Made by a program: the position numbers and the translations under genes. The notes beneath the pieces were generated by a model that did no database searches, had not been told where the DNA came from, and was given only the letters and a program-made list of their open reading frames with translations. 64,000 nt of DNA from Acidobacteriota bacterium (GTDB lineage Bacteria; Acidobacteriota; Thermoanaerobaculia; Gp7-AA8), in assembly GCA_003223645.1 (NCBI GenBank), contig QHVT01000008.1, positions 1 to 64,000 on the forward strand. Direction: 5' to 3'. Below are positions 7,417 to 64,000 of the stretch, in pieces (the stretch's first letter is position 1; each line of letters starts with the position of its first letter).

Positions 7417-7691
7417 CTCCTGGCCTCCTGGCCTCCTAGTACGTCAATTGCGCGTCGTGGAGCGGCGGCCGCCTCGGCCGCCGGAGCGCAGCGACAACCA
7501 GATGCAGCGTTTTGATTTCGGCGGCCGAGGGCGGCCGCCGCTCCACAGTTTCGTGATTGAAGCTCAGTAGTGGTCGTTCAAACTTGAAAACTCTTGGTTG
7601 CCCGATCTCCCGTCTGGGAGGCCTGGAGGCCCGGAGGCCTGGAGGCCCGGAGGCTTGGAGGCCCGGAGGCCTGGAGGCCCCGCATCCGGTG
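7417..7691. repeat. Intergenic repeat cluster: family A palindrome flanked by AGGCC-type tandem octamers
   Basis: This gene-free stretch has CCTGGCCTCCTGGCCTCC at about 7418-7437, a family A palindrome at 7457-7546 (GTGGAGCGGCGG to CCGCTCCAC) and a GGAGGCCT/GGAGGCCC tandem octamer run at about 7617-7681. The octamers on the two sides are roughly complementary, so the whole could fold as one hairpin. Confidence 0.7.
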
Positions 7692-28305: not shown

Positions 28306-29082
28306 ATGCGCATTCGTGCGATCACACTCGTCGTGTCTCTACTCGTCTGCTTCTCGATGCGCGCGCAGAGCGGTCATTGGGAAGGCGTCTCCGCGCCGCT
28401 CACGTTTCATCGCGACGCAGCAAGTGGAGCGGCGCCCGCTTCGGGCGCCGGGATCTCGCGAGAGGTCGGCGGCCGAAGCGGCCGCCGCTCCACTGATCCA
28501 TCCGAGACGCTCATCGATCGATGGGCGTCTGCCGTCGGCGGACGAGAAAAAATCGCAGCGCTGAAGTCGATCTATCGCGAGGCCACGATCGACGTGATGG
28601 GACACACGGGAACGATTCACGTGTGGCACACGATGGACGGCAAGTATCGGAAGGAAGAGCAGGTCGCGACGTTCTCGACGGTCGAGACGTTCGACGGCAC
28701 AAACGGCACAGTCCAGCAGGGCGACGGCGCGCCGCGCGCGATGAGCGCGAGCGAAGCGGCGGTGGCGAAATCGAAAGCGTTCGCGAATGCGAATGCGATG
28801 TTCTTCGCGTTCTTTCCCGACAAGCGCCGCGGCAGCGTCAGCTACGACGGCGACACGATCGTGCTGCATCCCGAAGGCGGCGTGGAGTGGCGCGTGACGC
28901 TCGATCCGCAGACGTCACTGCCGAAGACGATGACGCACGTCGAGAACGATCGACTCGTGACCGTCACGTTCGTTGCGTATGAGAGCGTCGACGGGATCAC
29001 GATCGAAAAAGAGATTCAGCGCGGACCGGTCGGCGCGGTGATCCGGTTTACGAAGACGGTGTTCAACGCGGCGATGCCGTAG
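28306..29082 (+). CDS. Secreted protein with LolA-like fold, carrying a family A repeat in frame
   Basis: 258 residues. RBS AAAGGAAA, then signal peptide MRIRAITLVVSLLVCFSMRA. Residues about 40-63 come from an in-frame family A palindrome (SGAAPASGAG, then GRSGRRST). The mature part (ETLIDRWASAVGGREKIAAL, VMGHTGTIHVWHTMDGKYRKE, MTHVENDRLVTVTFVAYESV) resembles outer-membrane lipoprotein-sorting or DUF4292-like beta proteins. It may bind a lipophilic ligand for the ABC exporter just upstream. Assignment of the fold is tentative. Confidence 0.6.
   Translation: MRIRAITLVVSLLVCFSMRAQSGHWEGVSAPLTFHRDAASGAAPASGAGISREVGGRSGRRSTDPSETLIDRWASAVGGREKIAALKSIYREATIDVMGHTGTIHVWHTMDGKYRKEEQVATFSTVETFDGTNGTVQQGDGAPRAMSASEAAVAKSKAFANANAMFFAFFPDKRRGSVSYDGDTIVLHPEGGVEWRVTLDPQTSLPKTMTHVENDRLVTVTFVAYESVDGITIEKEIQRGPVGAVIRFTKTVFNAAMP
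28424..28493. repeat. Family A palindrome in coding frame
   Basis: A 70-bp element: GTGGAGC outer arm, inner GGCGCCCGCTTCGGGCGCC hairpin, second inner GGCGGCCGAAGCGGCCGCC hairpin, GCTCCAC outer arm. Read as GT-GGA-GCG-GCG, the same phase as the copies in the E1 and FG-GAP genes. Confidence 0.9.
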
Positions 29083-29291: not shown

Positions 29292-31715
29292 TTAGAAAAT
29301 CGGCGCGTACTTCTTCGGGCTCGCCTCGCGCAGCAGCTCGTACACGCTCGCGAAGATCGTCTCGCGATTCGGCTTCGACCAGTAGTCGCCGTCGGAGCCG
29401 TACGAGGGGCGGTGTTCTTTCGCGGGGATGGTGAGCGGCTCGGAGTCGAGCCAGTCGTAGCCGTGATCGCGCTCCAGGACCTGCTGCATCATGAATGCGG
29501 TCGCGCCGCCGGGGACGTCTTCGTCGATGAACGCGACGCGACTCGTTTTCTTCAGCGACTCGACGATGACGCCGCGGACGTCGAACGGGAGCAGCGTCTG
29601 CACGTCGATGACTTCGGCGTCGATGCCGCGATGCGTGAGGAGCTCGACGGCTTCCATCACGATGCGCAGCGTCGCGCCGTAGGAGACGAGCGTGACGTCG
29701 GATCCCTCGCGAATGATTTCGGGGACGCCGAGGGGCAGCGTGAAGTCGGCGATGTTCGAGGGGAGTTTTTCTTTCGTGCGATAGCCGTTCAATACCTCGA
29801 CGACGATCGCAGGGTTGTCGCCGCCCAGCAGCGTGTTGTAGAAGCCGGCCGCCTGCGTCATGTTGCGCGGGACGCACACGTGCATGCCGCGCAGGAGGCT
29901 GAGGATCGCCGCCATCGGCGAGCCGGAGTGCCAGATGCCTTCGAGTCGATGTCCGCGCGTGCGGATGATGACCGGCGCTTTCTGTCCGCCGGCGGAGCGC
30001 CAGCGCAGGCATGCGAGATCGTCGGAAAGAATCTGCAGCGCATACAAGACGTAGTCGAGATATTGGATCTCCGCAATCGGACGGAGTCCGCGCAGCGAGG
30101 CTCCGATCGCCTGGCCGGCAATCGTGCACTCGCGGATGCCGGTGTCCATCACGCGGCCGATGCCGTACTTTTCCTGAAGGCCGAGGCAACCCTGATTGAC
30201 GTCGCCGAGCTTGCCGACGTCTTCGCCGAAGATGACGATGCGCGGATCGCGGCGCAGCGCGTGATCGAAGCAGTGGTTGAGGATCTCGAAGCCGTTGAGC
30301 GTTGGGGTGTCGTCCGCGTATTGGGCGGGGACTTCTTCGACGGGCGCGGTTTCGCTGTAGAGATGCGAGTCGTAGCGGTGGTCGCCTTCGCGAAGTTTGG
30401 TTCGCAGCCAAGTACCGGCGGCCGAAGCGGCCGCCGCTCCACTGATTAGCGCGGATGCAACGGCTCGCACCGCGTCGCGCCGATATGGCGACTGATTGCG
30501 CTGCAATTCGCTTTTCAGATCGTGTGCGCCGAGCTCCTCGAGCAATGAAATGGCCTCGCGCACTTCGGCATCGATCGGCGCGCGGTACGCGTCCCACGCT
30601 TTTCGCTGTGCGGCGCGGACGACGGCGACGTCTTCTTTCTCCATCGCGTCGAGCTCTTCGACGTTGGCGATTCCCTGGGCGATCATCCACTCGCGCATTT
30701 TCTGGATGCCGTCGAATGCGGTCTCCCACTCGAGGCGCTCTTTCGATTTGTAGCGCTCATGGCTTCCCGACGTCGAGTGTCCCTGCGGCTGCGTGACCTC
30801 GGTGACGTGGATGATCGCCGGCACGTGCTGCTGCCGCACGATCGTCGCCGCGGCGATGTAGGTCTCGCACAGCGCGGCGTAGTCCCATCCTTTGACCGAG
30901 TAGATGTCGAATCCCTGTTTCGATTTCGGCTCGCGCTGAAATCCTTTCAGCAGCTCGGAGAGATTGCTCTTCGTGATCTGGAATTCGTTCGGCACGGAGA
31001 TGCCGTAGCCGTCGTCCCAGATCGAGACGATCATCGGGATGCCAAGGACGCCGGCGGCGTTGAGCGACTCCCAAAACATCCCTTCGGCGCAGCTGGCGTT
31101 GCCGATCGAGCCCCACGCGATCTCGTCGCCGTTGCGCGAGAACGCGCTGATGTCGAAGTCCAGGAGAGCGTGCGTCCCGCCCGCCCCCGATGGGCGGGCG
31201 GGACGCCCGCTCTCCTCGGAGTCGATCCGGAGGTCGCGGTAGAGCTTCGATGCCCATGCGAGTCCGACGAGACGCGGCATCTGCGAGCCGGTCGGCGAGA
31301 CGTCGGCGGAAATGTTGTACGCATCCGTCTGCCGCGTCCACGATCCGTCCGGATTCAGAAGGCGCGACGCGAAATGCGCGTTCATCGAGCGGCCGCCCGA
31401 CCACGGATCGTGTTCGACGTCCGCGTCCGCATACAACTGCGCGAAAAATTCTTCGAGCGTGCCCGCGCCGAGGGCGAGGAGCAGCGTTTGATCGCGATAG
31501 TAGCCGGAGCGCCAGTCGCCTTTGCGGAACGCGCGAGCCCACGCCAGCTGCGGGATTTCTTTCCCGTCACCGAAGATGCCGAACTTCGCCTTGCCGGTCA
31601 GCACTTCGCGGCGGCCGATGAGACTCGCCTGCCGGCTGCGTACGGCGACGCGGTAGTCGTCGATGATGCTCTCGCGCGTGAACTGCGTGCGCGTCAAGGT
31701 CTCGGGTGTGGACAC
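29292..31715 (-). CDS. Fused alpha/beta E1 of a 2-oxo-acid (branched-chain type) dehydrogenase
   Basis: 807 residues from GTG 31715, which has GGAGAG 5 nt upstream. The alpha part carries the thiamine-diphosphate region IAWGSIGNASCAEGMFWESL, with the usual GDG changed to GSI as in other fused E1 proteins, then PMIVSIWDDGYGISVP. The beta part (about 450-800) has FGEDVGKLGDVNQGCLGLQE, RVMDTGIRECTIAGQAIGA, VSYGATLRIVMEAVELL and EDVPGGATAFMMQQVLE. It would decarboxylate 2-oxo acids and transfer the acyl group to an E2, not present nearby. Two palindromic repeats lie in frame (31161-31219 and 30417-30442), the second in the alpha-beta linker. Confidence 0.88.
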   Translation of the reverse strand: MSTPETLTRTQFTRESIIDDYRVAVRSRQASLIGRREVLTGKAKFGIFGDGKEIPQLAWARAFRKGDWRSGYYRDQTLLLALGAGTLEEFFAQLYADADVEHDPWSGGRSMNAHFASRLLNPDGSWTRQTDAYNISADVSPTGSQMPRLVGLAWASKLYRDLRIDSEESGRPARPSGAGGTHALLDFDISAFSRNGDEIAWGSIGNASCAEGMFWESLNAAGVLGIPMIVSIWDDGYGISVPNEFQITKSNLSELLKGFQREPKSKQGFDIYSVKGWDYAALCETYIAAATIVRQQHVPAIIHVTEVTQPQGHSTSGSHERYKSKERLEWETAFDGIQKMREWMIAQGIANVEELDAMEKEDVAVVRAAQRKAWDAYRAPIDAEVREAISLLEELGAHDLKSELQRNQSPYRRDAVRAVASALISGAAAASAAGTWLRTKLREGDHRYDSHLYSETAPVEEVPAQYADDTPTLNGFEILNHCFDHALRRDPRIVIFGEDVGKLGDVNQGCLGLQEKYGIGRVMDTGIRECTIAGQAIGASLRGLRPIAEIQYLDYVLYALQILSDDLACLRWRSAGGQKAPVIIRTRGHRLEGIWHSGSPMAAILSLLRGMHVCVPRNMTQAAGFYNTLLGGDNPAIVVEVLNGYRTKEKLPSNIADFTLPLGVPEIIREGSDVTLVSYGATLRIVMEAVELLTHRGIDAEVIDVQTLLPFDVRGVIVESLKKTSRVAFIDEDVPGGATAFMMQQVLERDHGYDWLDSEPLTIPAKEHRPSYGSDGDYWSKPNRETIFASVYELLREASPKKYAPIF
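30417..30442. repeat. Half copy of family A inside the E1 linker
   Basis: Only the GGCGGCCGAAGCGGCCGCC half plus the GCTCCAC outer arm remains. In the E1 frame it encodes SGAAAASAAG, in the poorly conserved linker between the alpha and beta parts. Confidence 0.8.
31161..31219. repeat. Family E palindrome in frame inside E1 alpha
   Basis: AGGAGAGCGTGCGTCCCGCC with its complement GGCGGGACGCCCGCTCTCCT, around CGCCCCCGATGGGCG. Encodes ESGRPARPSGAGGTHALLD. A second copy, intergenic, is at 38352-38410. Confidence 0.85.
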
Positions 31716-39809: not shown

Positions 39810-39830
39810 GGAGGGGATGCTACCGCAGGG

Positions 39831-39899
39831 CGGAGCGGCGGCCGCTTCGGCCGCCGGTTCTTCGCGAGAGGCCGGCGCCCGAGGGCGGGCGCGCTCCAC
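39831..39899. repeat. Family A palindrome
   Basis: CGGAGCGGCGGCCGCTTCGG through GGCGGGCGCGCTCCAC. Lies between the amidohydrolase and the HTH gene. Confidence 0.8.
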
Positions 39900-40289: not shown

Positions 40290-40324
40290 CGAGAGCCCGG
40301 CGCCCGAAGCGGGCGCCGCTCCAC
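40290..40324. repeat. Half copy of family A
   Basis: CGAGAGCCCGGCGCCCGAAG then CGGGCGCCGCTCCAC: the GCGCC half and one outer arm only, just after the HTH gene. Confidence 0.8.
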
Positions 40325-48463: not shown

Positions 48464-51400
48464 CTAGCGAACGATGCCCTTGCCCTGCACGATCCGATAC
48501 GTCCTATCCGCCCCCAATCCCTTGAACACCTGCTTCTCCCCGTCCGGCCAAATTACCGTCACGTCGGCTTTCGTGTCGCTGCCGAGGCCGAGGTGTTGTT
48601 CTTTTGGATGCACGGAGAGATAGCCGATCGTGGAGAAGACTTCGCGCCACATCCCTTTTTCTTTGGCGGTGTCGACGAGGATCTTTGCGCCGATGGCGTC
48701 GCGGGTGACGCCTTTCGACGGATCGCCGGTGAGGTGCAGTTTGATCCAGTGATTGCCGCTGGTGTTGTTGCGATAGACGATCGCCGGGGCGTTGAAGTTG
48801 TTGACGACCATGTCGAGATCGCCGTCGTTGTCGGCGTCGAGGTACGCGACGCTGCGCGCGTTGCCGGCGGGGTCCGCGCCGCTCTGCGCGCTCTCTTCCT
48901 GCAGCATGCCCTTCGTGTTGACGAAGAACACCGGCTCTTCTTTCGTCGCGACGGGCAGCACCGCGTTCGTCGGCTTGCCCGACGGATCGGTGAGATACGG
49001 ATTCACGCTCGAGTAGACCGCGTACTCGTTCATGCCGTTGACGAGATAGAGATCGTCGTCGCCGTCGTTGTCGTAGTCGAAGAACTGCGCGCCCCAGCTC
49101 CAACCCGTCGAGCGGAATCCGCGGCCGATCGCTTTGGATTGCTCGTATTGGACAGGCAGGATTGCCTGTCCTCCACTTCTCGAGACCCACATGTCGTTCG
49201 CTTCGACGACGCGCATGTTGGCCATCTTCGCGGGATTGAATTTCATCTGCGTCTTCGTGTCGGGGAGGACGTACTTTTCGTCCTTGTCCATCGTCACGAT
49301 GTTGGAGATGTAGACGTCGGGGAGGCCGTCGCGATTGAGATCGGTGATGCCGACGTTCATCGTGTAGCTCGGCTTGTCAGTGCCGATCTTCGACGACACG
49401 TCCTCGAATTTTCCGTTTCCGAGATTGCGATACCACGCATTCGTGCCGAAGTCGTTGCCGCAGATCAAATCTTCGCGGCCGTCGCCGTCGAAGTCGAGAT
49501 GGCCGACGGACTGCGCCCAGCCGGTGTTCTCGACGCCGCTGTCCGGCACTTCTTCGAACACGAAGTTGCCCTTGTTGCGAAACAGCTTGTCGGGCAGCGC
49601 GTTGCTGTTGCGGCGCGAGAGCGTCGGCAGCGTGCCATGAATGTAGTCGCCGAAGTAGCCGATGTAGAGATCGAGGAGACCGTCGTTGTCGAAGTCGAGC
49701 GCGGTCGCGGGACCGCCGACGAGTCCCTTTCCGCCGAGGTGCGCGCGGGAGGTCACGTCCTCGAATTTGCCGTTGCCCAAATTGCGATACACACGATGAT
49801 CGTCGTCGACGTACGTGATGATGACGTCTTCGAGCCCGTCGTTGTCGAAGTCGGCGACGATCGGCTGTCGGGGCTCGCCCGCCGTTCCGTCCGCGCGTCT
49901 CCAACCGAGTCCGGCCGCCTCGGTCGCATCGGTGAAGCGTCCCTTGCCGTCGTTGAGATAGAGCGCGTTGCCCGCGCCGCTGAGAATCAGCACGTCGATG
50001 TCGCCGTCGTTGTCCACATCCTCGGCGGCAACACCCGCTCCGCCGAACGTCGGCGGCACGGCGAGGCGCACGGTGTTGCCTTCGACGACCTGATAGCTGC
50101 GGATGAAACGCGCGAGCCAGTCCGACATCCGGTGCTCGAAGGCGATGCCGCTCGAAGAGGTGACGTCAGTGAAGAACTTCCCTCCCGACTTCGCAGCCGA
50201 AGGCGCGGACGCGATCGCGGCGGCAGTTTTCTTCGGCGCGGGCATCGACGCGTGTTTGTCGAGCTTGGCCTGGATGATCTTCAGCGACTTCTCGAGATCG
50301 CCGAGCTGCAACCGCTCGCGACTCTCCGACTCGGCAACGCCGCCGGCGACGCGCAACACGAGCACACCCATCTGCGCCGCGCCTTCGGTGAGGAGCTCCG
50401 CCGCGAACGGATCGGGCTCGATCGTGCCTTTGTAATTCGGGTCGTTGATCGCTTCGCTGAGATAGAGCCAGTGAACGCCGCCGTCGCGGAAGGCGTCGAG
50501 GTCGTAGGCCTCGATGACGACGCGCTCGTTTTTCGGGAGGCGCGGGAAGTAGATGATGTCCTCGTACTGATTCGCCTCGTGCGGCTGGAAGATCTGCAGC
50601 GCGGCGTGAACGTCGCCGACGCGGATCAACGGATGGTTGTTCTTCTTCGCCTGCCTGTCCGCTTCGAGCAGCACGTCGTTCATCCAGGCGATCATCACGT
50701 TCGTGAATTGATCGCGGAACTGCTTCCCTTCTTCGGGATCTGACGGCCACATGTGCCGCGCCATGTAGACCTGCAGGTTGCGGAGAAAAACGGCCATCGA
50801 GAGGTTGTTGTACTTCTCGAACGCGGCGACCTTCTCGGCGACGATCGCCTTGATCGTCGCGAACTTTTCTCCGGTCTCTGTGGAGCGGCGCCCGCTTCGG
50901 GCGCCGATTTCTCGCGATGCGTCGGCGGCCGAAGCGGCCGCCGCTCCACCTATGACGTTTCTCCACGCCGCTTTCAGAAGATCGGGCGTGATGCGATCGC
51001 GATTCAATTTGCGCGACTCGCGATCGGCGCGCTGAAGCGCCGCGAGCGTGGTGAGGTCGACCGACTCCTTGAACAGCTCGACCGCGTCGGCGTTCAACGG
51101 CAGCAGCGCCGCTTTCGGATCGAAAAGTGCATCCTGCTGCACCGCGAGCACCGCGCGCAGCGCATACGCGACCGTTCCGTACTGACGTTTGTCGCGCGCC
51201 GTCACGGTGGTGTCGCCGTGCACGAGCCACGAGCCGTCCGCGTTCTGCACATACGCGACCGCGCCCTGCAACACCGGCTTCAATTCATCGACGCCGACTT
51301 CGCTCTTCCCCGCCGCGCGCGAGGCGTTCGACGCCTTTTCCCACAGCGCGCGAATGAATTGTTTCTGCAACTCGATCTTCGCGAACCGCGCCTCGGACTC

Positions 51401-51571
51401 GAGCGGCGTTCCATAAATGAAGTCCTCGAGGCGGCTCGCGGTCGCGTAACACTTCGGGTCGCGCACGCCTTCGAGCTCTCCGATCTCGTTGATGATCGTC
51501 GGAACCTGCGCGGCGGCGATGAGGGGGAAAAGAAGGACGAGGATCGACTGAAGCGTACGCCTGCGGGACAT
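48464..51571 (-). CDS. Secreted FG-GAP/ASPIC-UnbV (CRTAC1-like) protein
   Basis: 1035 residues, signal peptide MSRRRTLQSILVLLFPLIAA. The first half is helical and unfamiliar. The second half carries FG-GAP/VCBS blades with Asp-rich calcium loops (DVDNDGDIDVLI; DFDNDGLEDVII; DFDNDGLLDLYIG; DFDGDGREDLI; DYDNDGDDDLYLVNG; DADNDGDLDMVVN) and the closing ASPIC/UnbV domain (TRDAIGAKILVD; LSVHPKEQHLGLG; VIWPDGEKQVFKGL). A family A repeat (50880-50949) and a short palindrome (49150-49171) are in frame. ATG 51571 has AAGGAG upstream. Likely extracellular beta-propeller; partner unknown. Confidence 0.88.
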   Translation of the reverse strand: MSRRRTLQSILVLLFPLIAAAQVPTIINEIGELEGVRDPKCYATASRLEDFIYGTPLESEARFAKIELQKQFIRALWEKASNASRAAGKSEVGVDELKPVLQGAVAYVQNADGSWLVHGDTTVTARDKRQYGTVAYALRAVLAVQQDALFDPKAALLPLNADAVELFKESVDLTTLAALQRADRESRKLNRDRITPDLLKAAWRNVIGGAAAASAADASREIGARSGRRSTETGEKFATIKAIVAEKVAAFEKYNNLSMAVFLRNLQVYMARHMWPSDPEEGKQFRDQFTNVMIAWMNDVLLEADRQAKKNNHPLIRVGDVHAALQIFQPHEANQYEDIIYFPRLPKNERVVIEAYDLDAFRDGGVHWLYLSEAINDPNYKGTIEPDPFAAELLTEGAAQMGVLVLRVAGGVAESESRERLQLGDLEKSLKIIQAKLDKHASMPAPKKTAAAIASAPSAAKSGGKFFTDVTSSSGIAFEHRMSDWLARFIRSYQVVEGNTVRLAVPPTFGGAGVAAEDVDNDGDIDVLILSGAGNALYLNDGKGRFTDATEAAGLGWRRADGTAGEPRQPIVADFDNDGLEDVIITYVDDDHRVYRNLGNGKFEDVTSRAHLGGKGLVGGPATALDFDNDGLLDLYIGYFGDYIHGTLPTLSRRNSNALPDKLFRNKGNFVFEEVPDSGVENTGWAQSVGHLDFDGDGREDLICGNDFGTNAWYRNLGNGKFEDVSSKIGTDKPSYTMNVGITDLNRDGLPDVYISNIVTMDKDEKYVLPDTKTQMKFNPAKMANMRVVEANDMWVSRSGGQAILPVQYEQSKAIGRGFRSTGWSWGAQFFDYDNDGDDDLYLVNGMNEYAVYSSVNPYLTDPSGKPTNAVLPVATKEEPVFFVNTKGMLQEESAQSGADPAGNARSVAYLDADNDGDLDMVVNNFNAPAIVYRNNTSGNHWIKLHLTGDPSKGVTRDAIGAKILVDTAKEKGMWREVFSTIGYLSVHPKEQHLGLGSDTKADVTVIWPDGEKQVFKGLGADRTYRIVQGKGIVR
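49150..49171. repeat. Small palindrome (GGACAGGCA arms) in frame inside the FG-GAP gene
   Basis: GGACAGGCA and TGCCTGTCC are inverted around GGAT. In the gene frame it encodes GGQAILPVQ, between two FG-GAP blades. Confidence 0.75.
50880..50949. repeat. Family A palindrome in coding frame of the FG-GAP gene
   Basis: Full 70-bp copy. Coding strand reads GGAAAASAAD then REIGARSGRRST, in the same phase as the copies in the E1 and 28306-29082 genes. Confidence 0.9.
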
Positions 51572-51646
51572 GGTTTGGGGACTCCTTACGGATCTGTGCA
51601 GGAGATTGTAACGGAGCCGGTTACGCGGTTGCGCAGTCGCGCCCAA

Positions 51647-52921: not shown

Positions 52922-53017
52922 CTCGACACGTCCTGTGGAGCGGCGCCCGCTTCGGGCGCCGATTTCTCGCGAGTGCTCGGCGGCCGGAGCGGCCGCCGCT
53001 CCACAGGACGTGTCGAG
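52922..53017. repeat. Family A palindrome with extended arms
   Basis: The 70-bp element at 52935-53004 is flanked by a further 13-bp inverted sequence, CTCGACACGTCCT and AGGACGTGTCGAG. It lies between the M48 start and the RAYT start. Confidence 0.9.
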
Positions 53018-53043
53018 AATGGACGCCGAGGGACAATGGGAGT

Positions 53044-53589
53044 GTGCCGGTTGGGATTGACACGAACGCGTATCGAAGACGGTTGCCGCACCTGAGCAAA
53101 GTCGGCAGGACGTTTTACGTGACGTTCTGTACGCAGGATCGGAAGACGCTCGTGCCGCTTGCGCGAGACATCGTTCTGCGGTCATGCATTTACGATCACG
53201 AAAAGATGTGCTGGCTCGATTGCGTCGTCGTCATGCCTGACCATGTACATCTGATCGTCACGCCGTATGACGACGTCCCGCTGTGGGAGCTGCTGGATCG
53301 CATCAAAGGCGCGTCCGTTCATCAGATCAACCGCAAACTCAGGCGCTCCGGCCAACTCTGGCAGCGCGACTCCTTCGATCGAATGCTGCGTTCGGACGAA
53401 AACCTGAATGCAAAACGCGAGTACATCTTCAACAATCCTGTTCGTGCCGGTCTCGTCGCGCGATGGGAAGACTACCCGTGGCTATGGTCTCCGGAGCTTG
53501 TGGAGCGGCGCCCGCTTCGGGCGCCGGGTTCTCGCGACAAATCGGCGGCCGAAGCGGCCGCCGCTCCACAAGACGACGAATTACCTTGA
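53044..53589 (+). mobile_element. REP-associated tyrosine transposase (RAYT, Y1_Tnp)
   Basis: 181 residues starting at GTG. Signature HUH pattern MPDHVHLIVTP (HxH, about residue 68), catalytic Tyr in NAKREYIFNNPVRAGLV, and the final WEDYPWLWS. RAYTs are single-copy housekeeping-like transposases that mobilise nearby REP palindromes; here four family A copies flank or overlap the gene (52922-53017, 53500-53569, 53624-53693, 53748-53816). The C-terminus after WSPEL is read through the first downstream REP (VERRPLRAPG, then AAEAAAAPQDDELP). Confidence 0.92.
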
Positions 53590-53816
53590 CGCGCTGACTG
53601 CCCGTGCTCCGGCCGCCGAACCTGTGGAGCGGCGCCCGCTTCGGGCGCCGGGATCTCGCGACGAATCGGCGGCCGAAGCGGCCGCCGCTCCACAAGACGA
53701 CGAATTACCTTGACCCGCTGACTGCCCGTGCTCCGGCCCCCGAACCTGTGGAGCGGCGCCCGCTTCGGGCGCCGGGTCTCGCGACAAATCGGCGGCCGAA
53801 GCGGCCGCCGCTCCAC
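53500..53816. repeat. Three family A palindromes in a 124-bp tandem
   Basis: Copies at 53500-53569, 53624-53693 and 53748-53816 (69-70 bp each), exactly 124 bp apart, with the linker AAGACGACGAATTACCTTGA, then GCTGACTGCCCGTGCTCCGG repeated. Directly after the RAYT gene. Confidence 0.92.
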
Positions 53817-57230: not shown

Positions 57231-57302
57231 GTGGAGCGGCGCCCGCCCTTGGGCGCCGAATTCTCGCGAGTAGTCGGCGGCCGAGGGCGGCCGCCGCTCC
57301 AC
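57231..57302. repeat. Family A palindrome
   Basis: GTGGAGCGGCGCCCGCCCTT to GGGCGGCCGCCGCTCCAC, between the adaptor and ATPase genes. Confidence 0.9.
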
Positions 57303-63879: not shown

Positions 63880-64000
63880 ATGGCGAAGAAACTGATTCCC
63901 GACCCGGAGCTCGAGCAGCTGGTGCGCGAGCTGAATGAAACGGATGATTCTGTGGAGCGGCGCTCGCTTCGGGCGCCGGCTGGTCTCGATACCTCGGCGG
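63880..64000 (+). CDS. 5' end of an unidentified gene, running off the window
   Basis: ATG 63880 opens MAKKLIPDPELEQLVRELNE, then TDDSVERRSLRAPAGL, still open at the window edge. The second part is a family A palindrome starting at 63952 and read in frame as VERRSLRAPAG. Too short to identify. No clear ribosome site. Confidence 0.5.
   Translation, partial: MAKKLIPDPELEQLVRELNETDDSVERRSLRAPAGLDTSA
63952..64000. repeat. Family A palindrome, cut by the window edge
   Basis: Left outer arm GTGGAGCGGCGCTCGCTTCG and inner GGGCGCC are visible; the right half lies beyond base 64000. Confidence 0.8.

Follow-up and report, generated by a model that had tools for sequence, protein, structure and literature searches.

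Analysis of the 64,000-nucleotide stretch of DNA (the window) revealed a gene encoding a REP-associated tyrosine transposase (RAYT, or TnpAREP), which lies among palindromic repeats of a single family, termed family A (Table 1). The full family A element is a REPIN composed of two inverted half-REPs. In each half, a GTGGAGC tag leads into a GC-rich stem with a short loop; the tags are outermost, and the spacer between the halves is centred on CTCGCGA. A first-pass annotation of the window had placed four full family A elements around the RAYT gene. All four were recovered, one upstream and three downstream of the gene, and together they comprise eight GTGGAGC-tagged hairpins. The six scattered copies reported in the same annotation are also real, one of them being diverged, and two single half-REPs that had been overlooked were added.

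Table 1. Positions of the RAYT gene, REPINs, spacers and single half-REPs in the window.
Feature	Position	Strand	Remarks
Dispersed REPIN, 90 bp	7457..7546		Spacer longer, unrelated
Dispersed REPIN	28424..28493		Close to the 5' end of a called gene
Single half-REP	30416..30442	-	
Diverged REPIN	39830..39899		One side tagged GCGGAGC
Single half-REP	40298..40324	-	
REPIN	50880..50949		In frame within FG-GAP/UnbV_ASPIC protein gene 48464-51646 (-), in linker; G005, G014, G017 and G011 without REPIN there
REPIN 1	52935..53004		Upstream of RAYT; within extra 13-bp perfect inverted repeat (52922-52934 / 53005-53017)
RAYT (TnpAREP) gene	53044..53589	+	181 codons (aa), GTG start; HUH in PDHVHL, Tyr127 in EYIFNNP; residues 153-176 encoded by REPIN 53500-53569
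REPIN 2	53500..53569		Overlaps RAYT 3' end; tandem unit one
Spacer copy 1, 54 bp	53570..53623		Contains RAYT stop codon 53587-53589
REPIN 3	53624..53693		Tandem unit two
Spacer copy 2, 54 bp	53694..53747		2 differences from copy 1
REPIN 4	53748..53816		Tandem unit three; 69 bp
Dispersed REPIN, 72 bp	57231..57302		
REPIN clipped by window end	63952..64000		Partner half at contig position 64030-64045

The assignment of the gene to the Y1_Tnp RAYTs, made at first from the sequence alone, was confirmed by profile searches. The deduced protein matched Pfam Y1_Tnp with 32 bits (cut-off, 23) and the REP-associated tyrosine transposase profile NF047646 with 103.5 bits (cut-off, 80). It is the sole RAYT match in the 6.38-Mb genome and thus represents a single-copy gene, not a multicopy insertion sequence. 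The gene is intact, and its GTG start lines up with the Met of two homologs. Residues H67, H69 and Y127 were invariant in an alignment of 15 RAYTs. In an AlphaFold2 model of the protein, the core had pLDDT values of mostly 92 to 98, and the top solved fold match to this model was E. coli TnpAREP in complex with a REP hairpin (4er8; E value, 5.5e-9). The protein contains the motifs DHVH, WQ and YIFNNP. For placement in subclass 2.7 or 2.5 (group 3), these motifs were set against Table 1 in the work of Quentin et al. (2018, PMC6006769), with a mixed outcome: HUH and W agree with subclass 2.7, and Tyr agrees with subclass 2.4. HUH and Tyr are about 60 residues apart, which disagrees with subclass 2.4 as described in that work. 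The conserved W of the C-terminal WxxW motif has been lost (PWLWSPEL versus PWLWREW), and a similar loss was detected in the G011a RAYT (PWLWPGEL).

The C terminus of the transposase had been described as REP encoded, and inspection of the reading frame upheld this description. The frame crosses REPIN 2 for 24 codons and yields the tail VERRPLRAPGSRDKSAAEAAAAPQ, followed by DDELP and the stop codon. This tail is disordered by prediction (AlphaFold2 pLDDT of about 50). In this RAYT family, stop codons of the genes are often positioned inside or just past the 3' REP, in the form of a loop TAA/TGA, a tag TAG or read-through (G000, G008, G012, G015, G007, G003 and G010), which indicates that REP-encoded ends are recurrent among them. 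Positions 53026-53034 of the window, ahead of the RAYT start, hold a CCGAGGTAGCCTCGG-like palindrome with a GAGG Shine-Dalgarno-like core. Many family members have a comparable palindrome in front of their RAYT genes (L057, L059, L062, L064 and L117), and it could couple translation of the RAYT to a hairpin.

To describe the family beyond the window, half-REPs were counted in the whole genome (6.38 Mb, 51 contigs, 96.7% complete). The counts were 463 for exact half-REPs and 515 with at most one mismatch, against 22 for a reversed-pattern control. REPINs number about 250 in the genome as a whole. The 70-nt REPIN DNA was predicted to fold with -37 kcal/mol (z = -7.2), and a half-REP hairpin with -13.7 kcal/mol. 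The excess over the control and the fold z-score indicate that family A is not a product of chance. The census of REPINs and genes covered about 2.36 of the 6.38 Mb (1.96 Mb, then a further 400 kb). In the first 1.96 Mb, 70 strict REPINs, mostly of 69 to 72 bp, and 44 single halves were found. The tag read GTGGAGC in 174 of 184 half-REPs; tags and stems are near-invariant, and loop and spacer vary among many REPIN copies. Family A thus has the characters of a REP family: a GT[AG]G-type tag (GTGG) at the foot of the palindrome, hairpin formation and occurrence as inverted doublets. Two variants were observed in addition. The first comprises "double-foot" perfect palindromes, six of 24 bp (GTGGAGCGGCGGCCGCCGCTCCAC) and one 34-bp version (C4:113371-113394, C6:133918-133941 and five more sites). 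They resemble REPINs with the middle deleted and fit the account in PMC6006769, where a double-foot REP is explained by a central deletion in an inverted dimer. The second is a minor REPIN subtype with the stem GGCGGGC, the loop TCTTA/TCTCA and the same GTGGAGC tag (G000 C44:250466-250529, C29:364525-364595 and C21:372647-372717), perhaps a second subfamily served by the same RAYT.

Analysis of the nucleotides directly 5' of the tag revealed CT, CA, TT or TA in 144 of 184 half-REPs (78%; background, 15%), with 6.9-fold enrichment of CT and 10.8-fold enrichment of TA. Cleavage between C and T by E. coli TnpAREP, and at CT and CA by the Marinomonas enzyme, is described in PMC8266576. By analogy, the step before the tag would be the expected scar of TnpAREP cleavage chemistry, though it is no proof of it; taken genome-wide, it predicts the cleavage dinucleotide. 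No target-site duplications beyond chance were found at the REPINs. Two REPINs are located inside extra inverted repeats, one of 13 bp (52922-53017) and one of 10 bp (C29:317650-317718). Insertion of REPINs into palindromes as a rule was rejected, since the whole set was not clearly above shuffles (four REPINs with repeats of at least 5 bp; shuffle mean, 0.7; shuffle maximum, 5).

The distribution of the family was then compared with that of the RAYT. Abundance of family A in relatives that lack the RAYT had been named as evidence against a pairing of the two; among the 120 nearest relatives, G006 alone was rich in family A, with 216 halves. G006 was rejected as a genome with family A but without the RAYT because a RAYT is present there: the gene is truncated where its contig ends, and its stop codon is followed by a family A REP, so that the pairing in G006 is judged on a partial RAYT. 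The congener G001 contains neither the RAYT nor family A. In a phylum sample of 396 genomes including the one studied here, none of the 395 other Acidobacteriota genomes had more than two exact copies. Because the congener and nearly all relatives are without the family, its expansion is lineage specific. These results indicate that family A REPs track the presence of the RAYT. Related RAYTs are 43 to 60% identical over the alignment, and most have other GT[AG]G-tagged hairpins at their sides, for example, the palindromes GTGGGGCGCCGGCGCCC, GTAGGTCGGACTCTCC and GTGGCACAGACACTC. A matching tagged palindrome was present on both sides at 40 of 58 RAYT loci from several phyla, the tag being GTGG at 24 and GTAG at 14 of those 40. 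The clean system of one RAYT and one REP family, together with relatives whose RAYTs lie beside many different tagged hairpins, offers a natural series for the study of RAYT-REP recognition.

The unit had been called REPtron-like; by the published definition it is a REPtron, with cognate REPs on both sides of the RAYT gene (52935-53004 and 53500-53816) and a family in high copy number in the genome. We assign a probability of about 90% to the reading that one intact RAYT, a TnpAREP-type single-strand HUH nuclease, sits in this REPtron among REPINs that it most likely mobilises. In single-stranded family A DNA, each half-REP would form a GC-rich hairpin with the GTGG tag on its 5' side. The RAYT may bind tag and hairpin and cleave where a pyrimidine-A/T step (CT, CA, TT or TA) borders the tag; the freed REPIN could then be joined to a similar step elsewhere. 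We infer binding, cleavage and present-day mobility, as well as the cause of the tandem considered below. The lost W of WxxW, the REPIN-encoded tail, the partial RAYT of G006 and the lack of target-site duplications count against this reading. Since RAYTs are described as single-copy, housekeeping-like genes (PMC8266576; PMC6006769), the RAYT might instead be a domesticated host gene among REPINs that are now immobile, their spread long over, and that function chiefly as terminators, mRNA hairpins or supercoiling sites. The intergenic position of most sampled REPINs (40 of 79) and the loop and spacer differences in many copies agree with such a role. The lineage-specific expansion and the near-invariant tags and stems speak against it, as do the approximately 30% of REPINs within genes, which are unlikely to be regulatory there; the reading with immobile REPINs is rather unlikely.

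Downstream of the RAYT, three palindromes in an exact 124-bp tandem had been annotated. The start-to-start spacing is indeed exactly 124 bp twice, but the sequence is not exactly repeated: the first and second REPIN-plus-spacer units are identical at 120 of 124 positions, and the third REPIN has 69 bp versus 70 bp. The claim of recent amplification is softened by these 4 differences in 124 positions and the 1-bp deletion. No second 124-bp REPIN-plus-spacer tandem was found in the approximately 2.36 Mb of sequence covered, where a further pair of closely spaced REPINs (C21:339956-340122) has differing spacers and an inverted order. The tandem probably originated from local duplication of a REPIN with its flank; repeats of REPIN plus flank would result from slippage, from unequal recombination or from local rejoining assisted by the RAYT. 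An origin unrelated to the transposase, through slippage during replication, through unequal recombination of strong hairpins with each other or as an artefact of the 51-contig draft assembly, appears rather unlikely. The very stable hairpins would favour slippage, but the 4 differences in 124 positions and the base pair missing from REPIN 4 speak against a pure assembly duplicate, and the tandem is unique in the sampled sequence and abuts the RAYT, like the RAYT-adjacent REPIN clusters described for P. fluorescens (PMC3116915).

REPtrons, RAYT-adjacent tandem REPIN clusters, REPs overlapping RAYT ends and intragenic REPs have already been published; the present system is a further one of this kind, from an Acidobacteriota (Gp7-related) lineage. 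For P. fluorescens SBW25, Bertels and Rainey (2011, PMC3116915) described tandem clusters of REP doublets (REPINs) next to every cognate RAYT. As in SBW25, inverted REP doublets are the repeated unit, with about 71 bp in one SBW25 group, and clusters lie beside the RAYT. In contrast to SBW25, the present genome is from the Acidobacteriota and has one RAYT, one main REP family and many intragenic copies, whereas the SBW25 study concerned extragenic space. The REPtrons of E. coli, S. maltophilia and Marinomonas, as presented in PMC8266576, share the RAYT between tagged palindromes and the CT (cut between C and T) or CA dinucleotide adjoining the REP, and the perfect palindromes of family A resemble group 3 of that work. 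They differ from family A in the tag (GTAG versus GTGG); here, the step before the tag can also be TT or TA, and the RAYT C terminus is REPIN encoded. RAYT-specific REPs have been described in PMC6006769, as have REPs that belong to the reading frame of the RAYT itself in tnpAREP subclass 2.4; the insertions of that subclass are located between HUH and Tyr, whereas the REPIN studied here extends the C terminus.

Less expected than these features are the dinucleotide step before the tag and the approximately 30% of sampled REPINs that lie in frame within genes, mostly in one phase. Genes were predicted with a simple, home-made dicodon gene caller. Among 79 loosely defined REPINs in 1.96 Mb, 24 were positioned within genes whose coding signal was good to either side of the element, and 5 of 16 were so positioned in the further 400 kb. 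Examples are G000 C29:376209-376278, C44:65171-65239 and C5:177619-177688 (in L168, L174, L189 and L193-L199). Orthologs in the compared relatives lack the REPIN; the affected proteins, named by Pfam or PDB matches or, for the first, second and fifth listed, by conserved motifs, include phytoene synthase, methionyl-tRNA formyltransferase (fmt), ETF-alpha, an ABC-F protein, a GNAT protein, a glycoside hydrolase and others. The net length gain over the relatives' orthologs ranged from about 0 to +23 aa. Little net change was found in the ABC-F protein, ETF-alpha, a Wzt-like ABC protein and an FG-GAP protein. A general replacement of linkers by REPINs was dropped as an explanation because a kinase-like protein (+23 aa) and the GNAT protein (+21 aa) carry near-pure insertions.

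The Ala/Gly/Ser-rich phase was used by 20 of the 29 pooled intragenic REPINs, whereas the phases in which pyrimidine-A/T steps fall within genes predict 38%, in a 38/49/13% spread over the three phases (p of about 8e-4); this bias is driven by the first set, the second (3 of 5) being too small to stand alone. GAAAASAAD is an example of a peptide encoded by a REPIN. With 29 cases and a home-made gene caller, the phase bias is a lead; no report of such a bias was found in the REP/RAYT literature consulted. All six frames are open in 56 of 70 REPINs, compared to 284 of 3,000 random 70-mers, because the GTGG tag provides no TAG stop and the stems are GC rich. We see an even chance that family A is a reading-frame-tolerant REPIN that has seeded in-frame linker peptides in perhaps a hundred proteins of a single genome, with selection sorting the reading phase. 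That the copies in genes represent gene-calling errors or pseudogenes instead of translated insertions is improbable. The gene caller is home-made, and in a few cases the coding signal is weak to one side of the REPIN, but the frames to either side are long and open and have a strong coding signal, and there is the bias in reading phase. In addition, phytoene synthase, fmt, ABC-F, ETF-alpha, GNAT and others continue as conserved protein past the REPIN, and the REPIN segment is all that their relatives lack. Read as translated insertions, the intragenic copies form a sizeable natural set of in-frame insertions that can reveal which protein linkers tolerate a foreign peptide.

Comparable properties are described in PMC3733652. 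The GTAG families there include dimers encoding 20 to 30 aa, REPs over RAYT 3' ends and dimers in tandem with flanking DNA. The O. terrae GTAG-20 family is rich in intragenic copies, and GTGG is found in most O. terrae GTAG-20 elements, as in family A; as judged from the published description, stem and host differ. The Rickettsia palindromic elements (RPE) cited in the same work are likewise palindromes in frame within many unrelated proteins, but the RPE-4/RPE-6 type belongs to a CGTC class for which that account gives no associated transposase gene, whereas family A has the RAYT. In a phytoene synthase-like protein of G010 (L258), a different repeat-like insert, ILSPEEGEGSPG...GDSSPSARLRMT, occupies the loop matching the REPIN site at G000 C44:65171; the loop might thus be one that readily accepts insertions.
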